Positions 10,011-64,000 of a stretch of 64,000 nucleotides of DNA are shown here, piece by piece. The notes beneath the pieces were generated by a model, which was given only the letters and a program-made list of their open reading frames with translations, did not search any database and was not told the origin of the DNA. The stretch is from Rugosimonospora africana (GTDB lineage Bacteria; Actinomycetota; Actinomycetes; Mycobacteriales; Micromonosporaceae). Position 1 is the first letter of the stretch, and every line of letters starts with the position of its first letter. Both the position numbers and the translations under genes were made by a program. Location of the stretch: the NCBI RefSeq assembly GCF_016862975.1, contig NZ_BONZ01000021.1, forward strand, positions 224,030-288,029. Direction: 5' to 3'.

Positions 10011-10484
10011 ATGAGCCGTCCCGGATCGTATGCCCGCACCACCGCGCCGGCCCGGTACCGCCGTCACCGGGCGCCCCCGTCGATCCAGACGGCCGCCCTG
10101 TTCCAGTACCTGGGTGCCCTGCTCACCCTCGCGGCGGCCGCCACGGTCGAGACGATCGCCCGCGGCCGGCCGCACTACGCGGCCCTGGACCGGGTGCCCG
10201 ACTCGTTGCGCCGCAACCTGGACATGGGCGGTCCGGTGATCGCCGTCGCGCTGGCCGTGCTCGGGCTGTGCTGGTTGCTGGTCGCGCGCAAGCTTCAACG
10301 CGGGCGGCAATGGGCCCGGCACACCGTGATGGTGCTGAGCCTGGTCGCCATCGCCACCGCGGTCTACTTCGCCGGGCTGCGGCACGATCCGCGGGTGCTC
10401 GCCGGGTTGGCCCTGCCGGCGCTGTGGGCCATGCTGCTCAGTACCGACGCCGCCCGCGCGTGGTGCCGCGATGACGGTAGGTGA
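10011..10484 (+). CDS. Small membrane protein, unknown function
   Basis: This 157-aa protein starts at the ATG at 10011, after GGAAGCT. About four hydrophobic segments run over residues 28-150 (AALFQYLGALLTLAAAATVETIA, VIAVALAVLGLCWLLVARKL, HTVMVLSLVAIATAVYFAGL and VLAGLALPALWAMLLS). The N-terminal 25 residues are basic. It overlaps the next gene's earliest possible start by 4 nt, so the two may be translated together. Family not recognised. Confidence 0.75.
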   Translation: MSRPGSYARTTAPARYRRHRAPPSIQTAALFQYLGALLTLAAAATVETIARGRPHYAALDRVPDSLRRNLDMGGPVIAVALAVLGLCWLLVARKLQRGRQWARHTVMVLSLVAIATAVYFAGLRHDPRVLAGLALPALWAMLLSTDAARAWCRDDGR

Positions 10485-10528
10485 CGCTCGTCACCACGCC
10501 CACCGGCCTGACCTGTCAGAATGACCAC

Positions 10529-11551
10529 GTGGCGTGGCGCAACCGGTTACCCATCGACGGGTTCATCCTGACGCTGCTCGCGACTGTTCTCCTGGCCACC
10601 CTGCTGCCGGCACGAGGCGGGGGCGTACAGGTCTTCGACGTTCTCACCACGGTCGCGGTCGGGCTGCTGTTCTTCCTCTACGGCGCCCGGCTGTCCCCGC
10701 AGGCGGCCTGGGCCGGGGCGCGGCACTGGCGGCTGCACACCACGATCCTGCTCGCCACGTTCGCGCTCTTCCCGCTGCTCGGGCTCGCCGCCCGGCTCCT
10801 CGAACCCTGGCTGCTGACTCCCGCGCTGTACCAGGGCGTGCTGTTCCTGTGCGCGGTGCCCTCGACCGTACAGTCGTCGATCGCGTTCACCTCGATCGCC
10901 AAGGGCAACGTCGCGGCCGCGGTCTGCGGCGCGTCGTTTTCGAACCTCGCCGGCGTGGTGATCACCCCGCTGCTGGTGGCCGCGCTCTTGCACGGCGACG
11001 GCCAGGTGCGGCTGTCCGGTGGATCGGCCGTGACCATCGCCCTGCAACTGCTGGCCCCGTTCGCCTTGGGCCAGCTCGCCCGGCCGTGGATCGCCGGCTG
11101 GCTGGGCCGGCACAAGCGGCCGGTCGCACTCGTCGACCGGGGCTCGATCCTGCTCGTGGTCTACACCGCGTTCAGCGCCGGCGTGGTCGCCGGCATCTGG
11201 CACGAGGTCGCGCCGGGCCGGCTGGTCGCGGTGGCCGCGGTCGACCTCGTCCTGCTGGGCTGCGTCCTGGGAATCCTGGTACTGGCCAGCCGGATGCTGC
11301 GGTTCTCCCGCGCGGACCGCACCGCGGCGGTCTTCTGCGGTTCGAAGAAGAGTCTGGCCAGCGGCCTGCCGATGGCGGCGGTGCTGTTCAGCGGGCACAC
11401 CGTCGGGCTGGTCGTGCTGCCGCTGATGCTGTTCCACCAGATCCAGCTGATGGTCTGCGCGGCGCTGGCCCGGTTCTGGGGCGCCAGGGCCGGCGAGGAC
11501 GACACCGGGCAGCGGACCCGGTCGCTGGCGGCCGCCGGCTCGACCGGCTGA
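10529..11551 (+). CDS. Bile acid:sodium symporter family transporter (YfeH/SLC10A7 type)
   Basis: The product has about 340 aa and ten predicted helices and resembles the BASS-family subgroup that includes bacterial YfeH and eukaryotic SLC10A7. Recognisable parts are the N-terminal LPIDGFILTLLATVLLATLLPA, FLCAVPSTVQSSIAFTSIAKGN and FCGSKKSLASGLPMAAVLF. The substrate is unknown; the family moves organic anions with sodium. I prefer the GTG at 10529 because the family usually begins here and TCAGAAT just upstream could be a -10 box for a leaderless message. A GTG at 10481 overlapping the preceding stop is the alternative. Confidence 0.9.
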   Translation: MAWRNRLPIDGFILTLLATVLLATLLPARGGGVQVFDVLTTVAVGLLFFLYGARLSPQAAWAGARHWRLHTTILLATFALFPLLGLAARLLEPWLLTPALYQGVLFLCAVPSTVQSSIAFTSIAKGNVAAAVCGASFSNLAGVVITPLLVAALLHGDGQVRLSGGSAVTIALQLLAPFALGQLARPWIAGWLGRHKRPVALVDRGSILLVVYTAFSAGVVAGIWHEVAPGRLVAVAAVDLVLLGCVLGILVLASRMLRFSRADRTAAVFCGSKKSLASGLPMAAVLFSGHTVGLVVLPLMLFHQIQLMVCAALARFWGARAGEDDTGQRTRSLAAAGSTG

Positions 11552-11657
11552 CGGCACCCGTCGACGGCGCCGGACTTGGCGGGGCCGATCTGGCGGGGCC
11601 GGCCGACAGCGGCCGGTGCCGACCGGGCCCGGTTCGGACCCGGGCGGCACCGTGAGG

Positions 11658-12299
11658 TCACTCTCCGGCGGACGGAACGGTCTCGATCGCGTTCAGGAAC
11701 GCGTCGGCGAGCACGGCGTGGCCGGGCAGGTTCGGGTGGATGCGGTCTTCGGCCCAGTCGCTCGCGTCCGACGACACCAGCACCCGGTCGAACGCCTCCT
11801 GGCAGGCCACGTGAACGGCGTCGAACTCGGTCGCGAGCGACGCCACCACCTTGCCGTACCGGTCGGTCTCCGCGCGCTGCGGCTCGTTCCGGTCCGGCTC
11901 GATGAGGTACGGGTCGGCGAGGATCAGCCGGCAGCCGGTGGCCTCCACCGCCCGGGTCAGCAGTGCGCGCAGGGTGCTCTCGTACTCGTCGATCGGCACC
12001 GCCTGGTCCGGCTGGTCCTCGAAGGCGCGCCAGATGTCGTTGATGCCGATCATCACGGACAGCCAGTCCGGCCGCGCCTCGACGACGTCCTGCTCCCACC
12101 GGGCGGACAGGTCCCGCACGGTGTCGCCGCTGATGCCGTGGTTGAGCCAGGTGAGCCGGGTGTCGGGCTGGCGGGCCGTGACGAACGCCCGGACCAGACT
12201 CAGGTATCCGTTGCCGAACGGCGCGTACAGGTCCCTGCGCCCGCAGTCGGTGATGCTGTCGCCGATGAACACGACGCGCTGATTGTCCTGAAAGAGCAT
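11658..12299 (-). CDS. SGNH/GDSL-family hydrolase
   Basis: This 213-aa cytoplasmic esterase has the complete SGNH set: block I GDSIT (nucleophile Ser15), the conserved Gly/Asn in HGISGDT and GINDIW (85-90), and the catalytic Asp185/His188 in DRIHPN. Small intracellular members of this type remove acetyl groups from sugars or oligosaccharides. There is no signal peptide, so it would act on imported substrate. It is the last gene of the catabolic operon, 16 bp after the propeller gene. Acetyl-esterase specificity is inferred from family and context. Confidence 0.88.
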   Translation of the reverse strand: MLFQDNQRVVFIGDSITDCGRRDLYAPFGNGYLSLVRAFVTARQPDTRLTWLNHGISGDTVRDLSARWEQDVVEARPDWLSVMIGINDIWRAFEDQPDQAVPIDEYESTLRALLTRAVEATGCRLILADPYLIEPDRNEPQRAETDRYGKVVASLATEFDAVHVACQEAFDRVLVSSDASDWAEDRIHPNLPGHAVLADAFLNAIETVPSAGE

Positions 12300-61439: not shown

Positions 61440-61454
61440 GTCTGAGGACTCAGC
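61435..61454. terminator. Hairpin containing both convergent stop codons
   Basis: GCTGAGTC-TGAG-GACTCAGC is a perfect 8-bp stem with a 4-nt loop. It includes the M20 stop (61437-61439) and the sigma-GH128 gene stop (61450-61452, reverse), so it is a compact bidirectional terminator candidate. Confidence 0.55.
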
Positions 61455-63453
61455 CGGCCGCCTCGAAGGCCCGGCCGGCGGCGGTCACGCTCGGCCCGCT
61501 GTGGAACAGCCCGGTGCTCGGGCCGCTGTCCGCGGCCGGCAGGCCGAACCACGCGTACCGCTGGACGTAGGACAGGCCGCCGAGCATCTTCGCCGACGCG
61601 GTGACGAACGCGGCCTGCTGGGAGTCGCTCGGGTACGACGTGCCGTTCGCGAAGTTGATGAGGGCGTACTCGGTGAGCCAGATCGGCTTGTGGTACCGGT
61701 TGTAGACCGCGCTGAGGTACGACTTGAGTTCGCTCACCGCGCTCGCCGTGACGAAGTCTCCGCCGTACCAGTGCAGGGTGATGAAGTCGACCCGGTAGCC
61801 GCGGCTGGCCGCGCCGGACATGAACTGGTCCAGCCAGCCGCCGGCCTTGTCGCCGCCGGTCGCCACCGCCGGGCTGCCCAGCGTCGACCCGGTCGCCATC
61901 AGCTGCGGCCAGAGGTCCAGCGCCTGCGCGACGGTCATGTTCGCCTGGTCGCCACGGTCCGGTTCGTTGAAGCCGAGCAGGTAGTGCCCGGCGTTCTTCG
62001 CCTGGCTCAGCGCGCTTGCGGTGACGCTGGCGGAGCCCCAGATCATCGGTACGAACTGGACGCCGGACGGCGTGGTGACGCCGGAATGCGTGGTGGACCA
62101 GGTGTAGTACCAACTGGCCTTCGACTGGGCCAGCGCCTGGCTCACGCCGGTGAAGTTCCACACGCACACGCCCTTCTTCGCCGAGACGACCGCCGGCGCG
62201 GGCGGTGCGGCCGCGGTGTGCGTCGGCTTCGGGCGCGGCGACGGCGATGGGGACGGCGGCACCGGGCTCGGCGACGGCGGAGTCGGCGATGCCACGACCG
62301 ACGTCGCGACCACGGCGGACGGCGACGCGACCGCGGCCACCGCCGGAGGTGTGGCCGATCCACTCAGCCGTACGGCGGCGAACGCCCCGACCGCGACGAC
62401 GGCGACGCAGGTCGCCGCGGCGGCGACCACGCCGACCGGCCCGTGCGAGCCGAACGTGAGCAGCGAACGCAGCCGCCGCACGGGTGCCGCGTGCGAGGGC
62501 CCGAGACCGCCCTTCGCCATGCCCGCCCCGTGACCGGCCGCGCCGTGACCCGCAGTGCCGTGACCCGCAGTGCCGTGACCCGCAGTGCCGTGACCGGCCC
62601 CATCATGACCCGCCGCGCCGTGACCCGCCGCACCATGGCCGGCGGCGCCGTGCGCCGCAGCGTGTCCGGCCAGCGGTGCGGCCGGCAGCGGTACCAGCGC
62701 CACCCCGGCGAGCAGGCGGTCCATCGGCAGCATCCCGCCGGTCCGGCTGGCGCAGGTCCGGCAGTCACGCACGTGCCGGGCCAGCCGCTTGCGCCACAGC
62801 GCGCTGGGCCTGCCGTCCCAGTCCCGGGTCAGCCCGGCCAGCTCACCGCAGCCCGGACGGGCCCGCAGCGCCCGCACCACGGTACGCGCGGACTGCACCT
62901 GTTCCTTCATCCGCTGCACCCGTACCGCGGCATGCGGCCCGGACAGTCCCAGCGCCATGGCGAGTTCGGCACGGTTCAGCTCGCCGGTCTCCTCCAGCCA
63001 CCAGAGGGAGAGCAGCGCACGATCGTCCTCTTCCAGCCACCGGGTCGCCTCCGCTACCTCCCGCCGCTGGTCGGTCAGGCCCAGTCGCAGGACGGTCAGC
63101 TCGGCGAAGTCGGCGGCGGGGTCGGGTACGGCCTGTGCCGCGTCCAGCTCGGCGCTGCGGTTCAGGACGGTGCGCCGGTACTGTTCGCGGTCGCGTACCT
63201 GGCGCACCGTGATGGCCACGAGCCAGGACCGGAACGCGTACGGGTCGCGCAGGTCGGGCAGGTGGCGCACGACCCGCATGAGCGTCTCCTGGACCACGTC
63301 GTCGACGTCGGCGTGCCCGTTCAGCGCCCGGCCCACGATGTTGTAGACCAGCGGCAACGACTGCGCCACCAGGGTGTCGAGCGCCTGCTGGTCGCCATCG
63401 CGCGCGGCCACGACCATGGCGCTGTCGGGTCCGCTCCGACCGGCTCCAACCAT
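61450..63453 (-). CDS. Transmembrane ECF sigma factor fused to a GH128-like glycosidase domain
   Basis: This 667-aa protein has, in order: sigma region 2 (about 14-92; DVDDVVQETLMRVVRHLPDLRDPYAFRSWLVAITVRQVRD) and sigma region 4 (about 130-195). Next are a zinc-finger anti-sigma-like element HVRDCRTC (227-234), ten or so GAAGH/GTAGH repeats (about 261-309), and one membrane helix (about 336-362). A Ser/Pro linker leads to an outside GH128/Asl1-like barrel (about 425-667). Glycosidase residues are kept: Glu near 497 in GFNEPDRGD and Glu near 594 in WLTEYAL. It is a one-piece signalling protein that can sense a glucan outside and act on transcription inside. ECF classes with such extensions are known in actinobacteria. 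SD AAGGAG is upstream; a GTG at 63456 is also possible. Confidence 0.93.
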   Translation of the reverse strand: MVGAGRSGPDSAMVVAARDGDQQALDTLVAQSLPLVYNIVGRALNGHADVDDVVQETLMRVVRHLPDLRDPYAFRSWLVAITVRQVRDREQYRRTVLNRSAELDAAQAVPDPAADFAELTVLRLGLTDQRREVAEATRWLEEDDRALLSLWWLEETGELNRAELAMALGLSGPHAAVRVQRMKEQVQSARTVVRALRARPGCGELAGLTRDWDGRPSALWRKRLARHVRDCRTCASRTGGMLPMDRLLAGVALVPLPAAPLAGHAAAHGAAGHGAAGHGAAGHDGAGHGTAGHGTAGHGTAGHGAAGHGAGMAKGGLGPSHAAPVRRLRSLLTFGSHGPVGVVAAAATCVAVVAVGAFAAVRLSGSATPPAVAAVASPSAVVATSVVASPTPPSPSPVPPSPSPSPRPKPTHTAAAPPAPAVVSAKKGVCVWNFTGVSQALAQSKASWYYTWSTTHSGVTTPSGVQFVPMIWGSASVTASALSQAKNAGHYLLGFNEPDRGDQANMTVAQALDLWPQLMATGSTLGSPAVATGGDKAGGWLDQFMSGAASRGYRVDFITLHWYGGDFVTASAVSELKSYLSAVYNRYHKPIWLTEYALINFANGTSYPSDSQQAAFVTASAKMLGGLSYVQRYAWFGLPAADSGPSTGLFHSGPSVTAAGRAFEAAG

Positions 63454-63634
63454 CACCCAAGCGCTCCTTCCGCACCCGTACGCTACGGCCGCCGGTACGG
63501 CCGCCTGTATCGGAGACCCGTCGCACCACGCCGGATAACGCTTTTCTCCGCTCCCGGGACGGTACCGGACGCCGACCCAGAGGCATCGATGACGACCTCT
63601 TGACAAGACGGCGAACTGCCGGCAACCTCTGGGC

Positions 63635-63646
63635 GAGAGCGCTCTC
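63635..63646. promoter_or_regulatory. LacI-type palindrome, copy 1
   Basis: GAGAGCGCTCTC is a perfect 12-bp palindrome between the sigma-GH128 gene and the divergent secreted-protein gene. A second copy lies with its centre 53 bp away, about five DNA turns, suited to cooperative binding by one dimer pair. Confidence 0.7.
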
Positions 63647-63687: not shown

Positions 63688-63699
63688 GAGAGCGCTCTC
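63688..63699. promoter_or_regulatory. LacI-type palindrome, copy 2
   Basis: GAGAGCGCTCTC again, here inside GGAGAGAGCGCTCTCAG, 53 bp before the secreted-protein start. The two copies probably control the divergent genes together. Confidence 0.7.
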
Positions 63700-63752: not shown

Positions 63753-64000
63753 ATGAGTACCGTCCCCCCGCTGCCCGTCCGGCGACCAGCCCGGTCCCGG
63801 CTCTGGCTCGCGGTGGCCGTGCTGGCCACCGCCGCACTCGTCGCCAGCTACCTGGCCGTGACCGCGCTGACCGCGAGCGCGGCGGCCACCCTGCTGTCCC
63901 AGGGGCGCCCGGCGACCGCGTCGTCCTCCGAGAACGCCGGCAGCCCGGCCTCGGCCGCCGTCGACGGCAACACCGGCACCCGGTGGTCGTCCGCGTTCAG
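63753..64000 (+). CDS. Secreted discoidin/CBM32-domain protein, 5' part only
   Basis: The frame is open from the ATG at 63753 (SD GGAGGAA) to the end of the window, so the gene is cut off. A signal peptide occupies about residues 1-45 (LWLAVAVLATAALVASYLAVTALTASAAA). Then TLLSQGRPATASSSENAGSPASAAVDGNTGTRWSSAF begins an F5/8 type C (discoidin, CBM32-like) fold. The rest is likely a glycoside hydrolase or polysaccharide-binding protein. Promoter palindromes are shared with the sigma-GH128 gene. Confidence 0.85.
   Translation, partial: MSTVPPLPVRRPARSRLWLAVAVLATAALVASYLAVTALTASAAATLLSQGRPATASSSENAGSPASAAVDGNTGTRWSSAF

Follow-up and report, generated by a model that had tools for sequence, protein, structure and literature searches.

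A predicted membrane-spanning ECF sigma factor fused to a GH128 domain in Rugosimonospora africana: a candidate sensor of beta-1,3-glucan

We analysed a 64,000-nucleotide stretch of Rugosimonospora africana DNA (contig NZ_BONZ01000021.1, positions 224,030 to 288,029), here called the window. It carries a minus strand gene that joins an extracytoplasmic function (ECF) sigma factor, through a predicted membrane helix, to a GH128 glycoside hydrolase domain. The reading that we favour, with some confidence, is that the protein is an autoregulated one-piece sensor, likely answering beta-1,3-glucan outside the cell. It would switch on its own gene and, in relatives, secreted glucan-directed genes. 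The parts of the fused gene are as follows.

61450..63453, minus strand: fused gene, 667 aa; ECF sigma factor, finger motif, predicted transmembrane helix and GH128 domain (single open frame, Pfam)
63187..63372, minus strand: sigma region 2, residues 28-89 (PF04542, Sigma70_r2, E 9.5e-13; the fold resembles solved sigma-2 domains)
62863..63111, minus strand: sigma region 4, about residues 115-197 (within the TIGR02937 match; helices in the predicted structure)
62704..62850, minus strand: finger segment of the anti-sigma (ZAS) type, residues 202-250, with candidate zinc ligands C202, H227, C231 and C234 (conservation)
62380..62436, minus strand: predicted transmembrane helix, residues 340-358 (hydropathy 2.41)
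62182..62367, minus strand: Pro/Ser-rich linker, residues 363-424, predicted to lie outside and mostly disordered (pLDDT <50 up to residue 420)
61453..62181, minus strand: GH128 subgroup I domain, residues 425-667 (barrel match)
61963..61965, minus strand: codon of E497, aligned with E102 of AmGH128_I (6uat alignment and title)
61669..61671, minus strand: codon of E595, aligned with E199 of AmGH128_I (6uas and 6ufl alignments and titles)

The original prediction, made from the DNA letters, had described one 667-aa frame joining sigma and glycosidase parts. This description stands: the frame runs from 63453 to 61450 without a stop, Pfam recognises domains of both kinds and homologues share the build. 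The open frame and these homologues rule out a frameshift or assembly artefact between the two parts. ECF regions 2 and 4 were likewise recovered, by PF04542 and by the ECF superfamily model TIGR02937, which spans residues 24-188. The proposed anti-sigma-like HxxxCxxC finger is present at residues 227-234, and C202, H227, C231 and C234 are conserved; no Pfam zinc-finger match was obtained in the fused protein and the finger is assigned by motif only. A single hydrophobic helix is predicted at residues 340-358, in line with the one membrane helix expected, and this stretch has pLDDT <50 in the predicted structure. Basic residues flank the cytoplasmic side of membrane helices (the positive-inside rule). 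Since the basic residues RRLR precede the helix, the N-terminus is likely inside.

The outer part matches Pfam Glyco_hydro_cc (PF11790) at residues 441-663 and contains the motifs FNEPD and WLTEY. Its TIM barrel is nearest to GH128 subgroup I structures. The domain is 60% identical to the solved subgroup I domain AmGH128_I (6uaq) of Amycolatopsis mediterranei, and both catalytic glutamates are shared. Thus, a GH128-type barrel with two intact catalytic glutamates, as first proposed, is what we find. The solved AmGH128_I structure, by contrast, comprises one domain only; when its native chain was looked for, none of the proteins and open reading frames searched contained its peptide strings. 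By comparison with the solved structures, the outer GH128 domain likely detects beta-1,3-glucan.

Actinomycetes commonly have the sigma–GH128 fusion. With residues 1-259 as query, 4928 proteins were retrieved, among them sigma factors built differently; only the 7992 candidates with most words in common had been scored. Both PF11790 and PF04542 occurred in 117 of the 120 best matches listed of the 4928 (own entry counted). The named hosts of fused proteins among the matches listed were all actinomycetes (Micromonospora, Streptosporangium, Sphaerisporangium, Planotetraspora, Streptomyces, Streptacidiphilus and others), and the fused sigma factor is likely actinobacterial. We also compared 263 full-length sigma-bearing homologues, with duplicates between sources kept in. 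Both catalytic motifs were present in 262 of them and HxxxCxxC in 261, and the helix hydropathy exceeded 1.6 in all 263. In an alignment of 95 rows, C202, E497 and E595 were invariant, and H227, C231 and C234 were each present in 94. All four finger positions were invariant in a second alignment of 46 rows.

Some related loci depart from this layout. In L049, L056, L059 and L063 a break separates the sigma part of the fused gene from the GH128 part and leaves two frames, through sequencing error or a real loss, and in L067 there is an N gap. A Frankia-labelled metagenome-assembled genome has a tandem pair of fused sigma–GH128 genes (L002:7581-9920 and 10039-12129).

Upstream of the fused gene, the following elements were identified.

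63512..63539, minus strand: predicted own promoter GTTATCC-N15-GTCTCC, 58 bp before the ATG (30.2 bits)
63464..63469, minus strand: AAGGAG, likely ribosome-binding site (by sequence)

The corresponding regions of relatives carry GTTRTCC-N15/16-GTCTCC with a T-rich stretch ahead. A loose form of this motif (spacer 11-22) occurred in 35 of 47 non-redundant upstream regions, against a mean of 0.085 and a maximum of 2 in Markov-1 shuffles. The spacer was 15 or 16 in 34 motif sites, and a mirror copy in the opposite orientation was present in 11 of the 47 regions. A position weight matrix (PWM) was trained on 34 sites, all before sigma genes. The site at 63512-63539 is the only strong one in the window, with the next best scoring 9.3 bits. 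The fused gene is predicted to be autoregulated via this promoter-like site.

We used the PWM to scan 80 related loci (1.29 Mb) at a threshold of 22 bits. There were 119 matches above the threshold, versus 0 in the reversed sequence and 0, 0, 0, 0, 0 and 1 in six shuffles. By phmmer, with a sample confirmed by Pfam, 64 matches precede sigma genes, 26 thaumatin-family genes (21 loci), 12 F5/8C-GH128 genes and 8 F5/8C-DUF1996 genes, leaving 9 'other'. Among these nine, the L044 match precedes a thaumatin gene that also appears as L166, and the L067 match the sigma gene itself. All 12 separate GH128 genes in the 80 loci have the motif, some on contigs other than that of the same-species sigma gene (e.g. 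Herbidospora L066 and L071-L074). Hits to a strict pattern numbered 56 in twelve genomes (5 in the window's own, 51 in 11 others). The 46 sites examined represent 45 distinct sequences, of which 28 score at least 22 bits. Of those 28, 24 precede genes of the following classes: fused genes (10, which are not independent of the PWM training set), a sister sigma gene (1), F5/8C-DUF1996 (6), F5/8C-GH128 (4) and thaumatin (3). The other four are a site on contig C61 of the window's own genome, sites before a secreted protein and an alginate-lyase-family protein, and one without a clear gene. All 17 sites below 22 bits likewise fall outside these classes.

As a control we examined 31 genomes (the window's own and 30 relatives). 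Three further genomes that carry a fused gene have the motif ahead of it (27.9, 31.5 and 29.0 bits). Conversely, none of five separate GH128 genes in genomes without another GH128 match had it (-8.2 to -0.1 bits; one genome is 69% complete). Since the motif is present before fused genes and absent at these five GH128 genes of genomes without a found fused gene, it tracks the sigma factor rather than the enzyme, within the limits of so few genomes. The original prediction also held that glucan outside is coupled to transcription inside. This is supported indirectly, as relatives have the motif ahead of separate genes for GH128, DUF1996 and thaumatin proteins.

Three of the genes behind motif sites are of separate interest. 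The sister sigma gene (L189:2018-3712, minus strand) encodes a sigma–finger–membrane protein with 60% identity over the sigma part and another outer domain that has no Pfam name; it carries a weaker copy of the motif (22.9 bits). Because L189 pairs a similar sigma part with a different outer domain, the inner half resembles a chassis that can be reused. Two Streptomyces genes behind strong sites are possible extra targets: one for a Tat-signal alginate-lyase-family protein (L190:1631-3112, minus strand) and one for a secreted protein with only a weak PATR match (L195:829-2934, minus strand).

The architecture is not new; because ECF52 and ECF53 proteins with predicted glycosidase domains are already in print, the fused protein belongs to a published kind of fusion. 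What our protein shares with the ECF53 (and ECF52) groups of actinobacterial sigma factors is a C-terminal fusion that brings in a zinc-finger segment, a membrane region of one or two helices and an outer portion related to carbohydrates (PMC8999054). Our protein has sigma regions 2 and 4, a ZAS-like finger by motif, one helix and a GH128 outer part; by domain layout there is no categorical difference from ECF53. The apparently active enzyme had been put forward as a less-described part. A 2024 review does note the lack of experimental validation, but it already describes some ECF52 and ECF53 proteins with predicted glycosyl hydrolase catalytic domains (PMC10766802). SCO4117 of Streptomyces coelicolor (ECF52) shares the one-piece sigma factor, zinc finger, membrane region, Pro-rich linker and a carbohydrate-type outer module, and its autoregulation has been suggested; it differs in that the outer binding module is not GH128 and in its motif (CSGYN-17bp-SRHA) and regulon (PMC5826349). 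The nearest working parallel is SigI6-RsgI6 of Clostridium thermocellum, which shares a glycoside hydrolase outer domain akin to regulon enzymes, polysaccharide sensing and an autoregulated sigma factor (PMC4711584). The promoter of the xylanase Xyn10D, to which the GH10 outer domain of RsgI6 is 57% identical, responded to SigI6 (PMC4711584). SigI6-RsgI6 differs in being two proteins, sigma and anti-sigma, with another sigma family and GH10 rather than GH128. By analogy the fused protein would work alike without being a member, as it is one chain.

What appears new is the GTTRTCC-N15/16-GTCTCC promoter-like motif with its thaumatin, GH128 and DUF1996 target set. Such a regulon was not found in our literature searches on GH128 with sigma factors and on thaumatin, Streptomyces, glucan and sigma factors together, the latter judged by title among 12 of 249 papers listed; ECF classification papers, which possibly list motifs, lay outside that scope. 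The motif, the target gene classes and beta-1,3-glucan as the ligand guessed from solved structures make a published prediction directly testable in ordinary soil actinomycetes. DUF1996, which also occurs in a DUF1996-WSC stress sensor (PMC9148135), gains a regulatory context alongside beta-glucan enzymes.

The following mechanism can be envisaged. By analogy with ZAS anti-sigma factors and with ECF48, ECF52 and ECF53, the finger segment would keep the sigma part inactive at the membrane. The outer domain would bind, and probably cut, glucan, leading to proteolysis near or in the membrane helix; release of the sigma part by proteolysis has been proposed for ECF48, ECF52 and ECF53 (PMC8999054). 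The freed sigma part would then read GTTRTCC-N15/16-GTCTCC promoters. Because thaumatin-type proteins and GH128 fit as outputs, the natural source of glucan is likely the fungal cell wall. The fused protein thus likely enables soil actinomycetes to sense fungal-type glucan and respond.

We hold only tentatively the fuller proposal of a widespread actinobacterial fungus detector, in which a competent GH128 domain cuts fungal beta-1,3-glucan, frees the sigma part and turns on GH128, thaumatin-like and DUF1996 proteins as an anti-fungal-wall set. It is possible, though we are inclined to doubt it, that the domain is a binding sensor only, with catalysis irrelevant to signalling and the residues kept for binding, as the GH10 domain of RsgI6 is read. 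That domain has very low activity, yet binds its polysaccharides (PMC4711584), and the PDB titles of GH128 subgroup VII members describe oligosaccharide-binding proteins. Set against this are the high identity to a subgroup I enzyme, the near-universal catalytic motifs and the residues flanking both glutamates, which are invariant across the 95 rows. Binding-only domains often drift at catalytic residues, and we count this against a purely binding role. An unlikely alternative is that the cue is one of the organism's own envelope or development, as one may read SCO4117, whose deletion delays development and antibiotics (PMC5826349). The window's own genome has no clear glucan-directed target, as such a cue would allow, but the motif of relatives is found ahead of GH128, DUF1996 and thaumatin genes, with few other targets. 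Beta-1,3-glucan is not known to be a common polymer of actinomycete walls, a further point against an envelope cue. We think it improbable that the main role of the protein is that of a glucanase anchored in the membrane at the cell surface, with a sigma part that only tunes the protein's own synthesis. The fused gene is the only clear target in its own genome, and in Micromonospora loci sites precede the sigma gene only; against this, unlinked GH128 and DUF1996 genes of other relatives share the motif.

Several observations weigh against a sensor that controls glucan-directed genes. What SCO4117, the sole tested ECF52 relative, governs is development and antibiotics rather than glucan use (PMC5826349). 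The loose motif is absent from 12 of the 47 upstream regions, and 4 of the 80 loci have no PWM match. Seven PWM matches precede genes of other kinds: five DUF305 genes in Herbidospora loci (3 of the 5 proteins were scanned for this call), a ferric-reductase-like gene and an unnamed short frame. Sites before non-sigma genes are missing from every Micromonospora locus in this set of 80, and DUF1996 is itself a domain of unknown function. The packing of the finger segment on the sigma domains is left undecided by the predicted structures. In a second prediction (46 sequences, pLDDT 77.9), fits were good across sigma region 2 alone; rmsd was about 10-17 against solved chains aligned over both sigma regions, and SigE-ChrR and SigW-RsiW chains aligned over region 2 only. 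In the window's own genome, high scores occur only at the fused gene's own site and at C61 (36.6 bits). Both DUF1996 genes of this genome lack the motif, as does the divergent F5/8C gene described below (best -1.6), which has LacI-like palindromes instead. No thaumatin gene turned up there, in a search whose control likewise gave no match. Hence, the output side is seen in relatives and not in the window's organism.

The C61 site (G000:C61:131455-131482) has no clear gene within 500 bp; the nearest likely gene, SDR-like by eye, lies 515 bp on. Of the other strict sites in this genome, those on C34 (17.6) and C101 (15.8) lie inside predicted coding genes and were taken as chance, and that on C93 scores -2.5. 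PADLOC gave no match.

A further element had been singled out as a functional 'His-repeat collar'.

62523..62652, minus strand: variable His-rich repeat, residues about 268-310, a 15-bp tandem repeat (TRF, 8.7 copies)

A role of this repeat in metal binding, turning the protein into a switch that responds to metal or redox state, is most improbable. Its 9 His in 40 residues are the highest among the 263 homologues, and the linker of two near relatives has 15-16 His; but the near relative P0004 has 3, and 220 of the 263 homologues have 0-4 His per 40 residues. Across the four closest relatives, the linker has as few as 3 and as many as 16 His, and the repeat columns of the 95-row alignment have 53% occupancy and a 20% majority residue. 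The variable counts, low conservation and tandem array lead us to reject a collar as a core metal part. The repeat is unlikely to matter for function, and this part of the original prediction was not upheld.

Beyond the fused gene, the window ends with a divergent gene and its probable control sites.

63753..64000, plus strand: start of the divergent gene, truncated by the contig end; its product is predicted to be secreted and shows the first part of an F5/8C domain (PF00754 start)
63635..63646, no strand: palindrome GAGAGCGCTCTC, LacI-operator-like, likely for the divergent gene (genome site count)
63688..63699, no strand: second palindrome GAGAGCGCTCTC (genome site count)

The PF00754 match, with an E-value of 2.6e-4, is too weak to reach the family cut-off. 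The divergent gene also matches the F5/8C start of relatives' DUF1996 and GH128 proteins, several of which adjoin the fused gene divergently. There are 15 sites for GAGAGCGCTCTC in this genome versus 1 for a reversed control, including sites close to where an F5/8C-DUF1996 gene of its own and, on C45, a LacI-family gene (L176:4591-5712) begin. This distribution suggests a LacI regulon for secreted F5/8C enzymes. The palindrome was rejected as a conserved switch and taken as a local feature: only 2 of 73 sigma gene starts in relatives (L020 and L030) have its core, GAGCGCTC, in the 500 bp ahead of them. In this organism, the divergent F5/8C output may have moved to LacI-type control.
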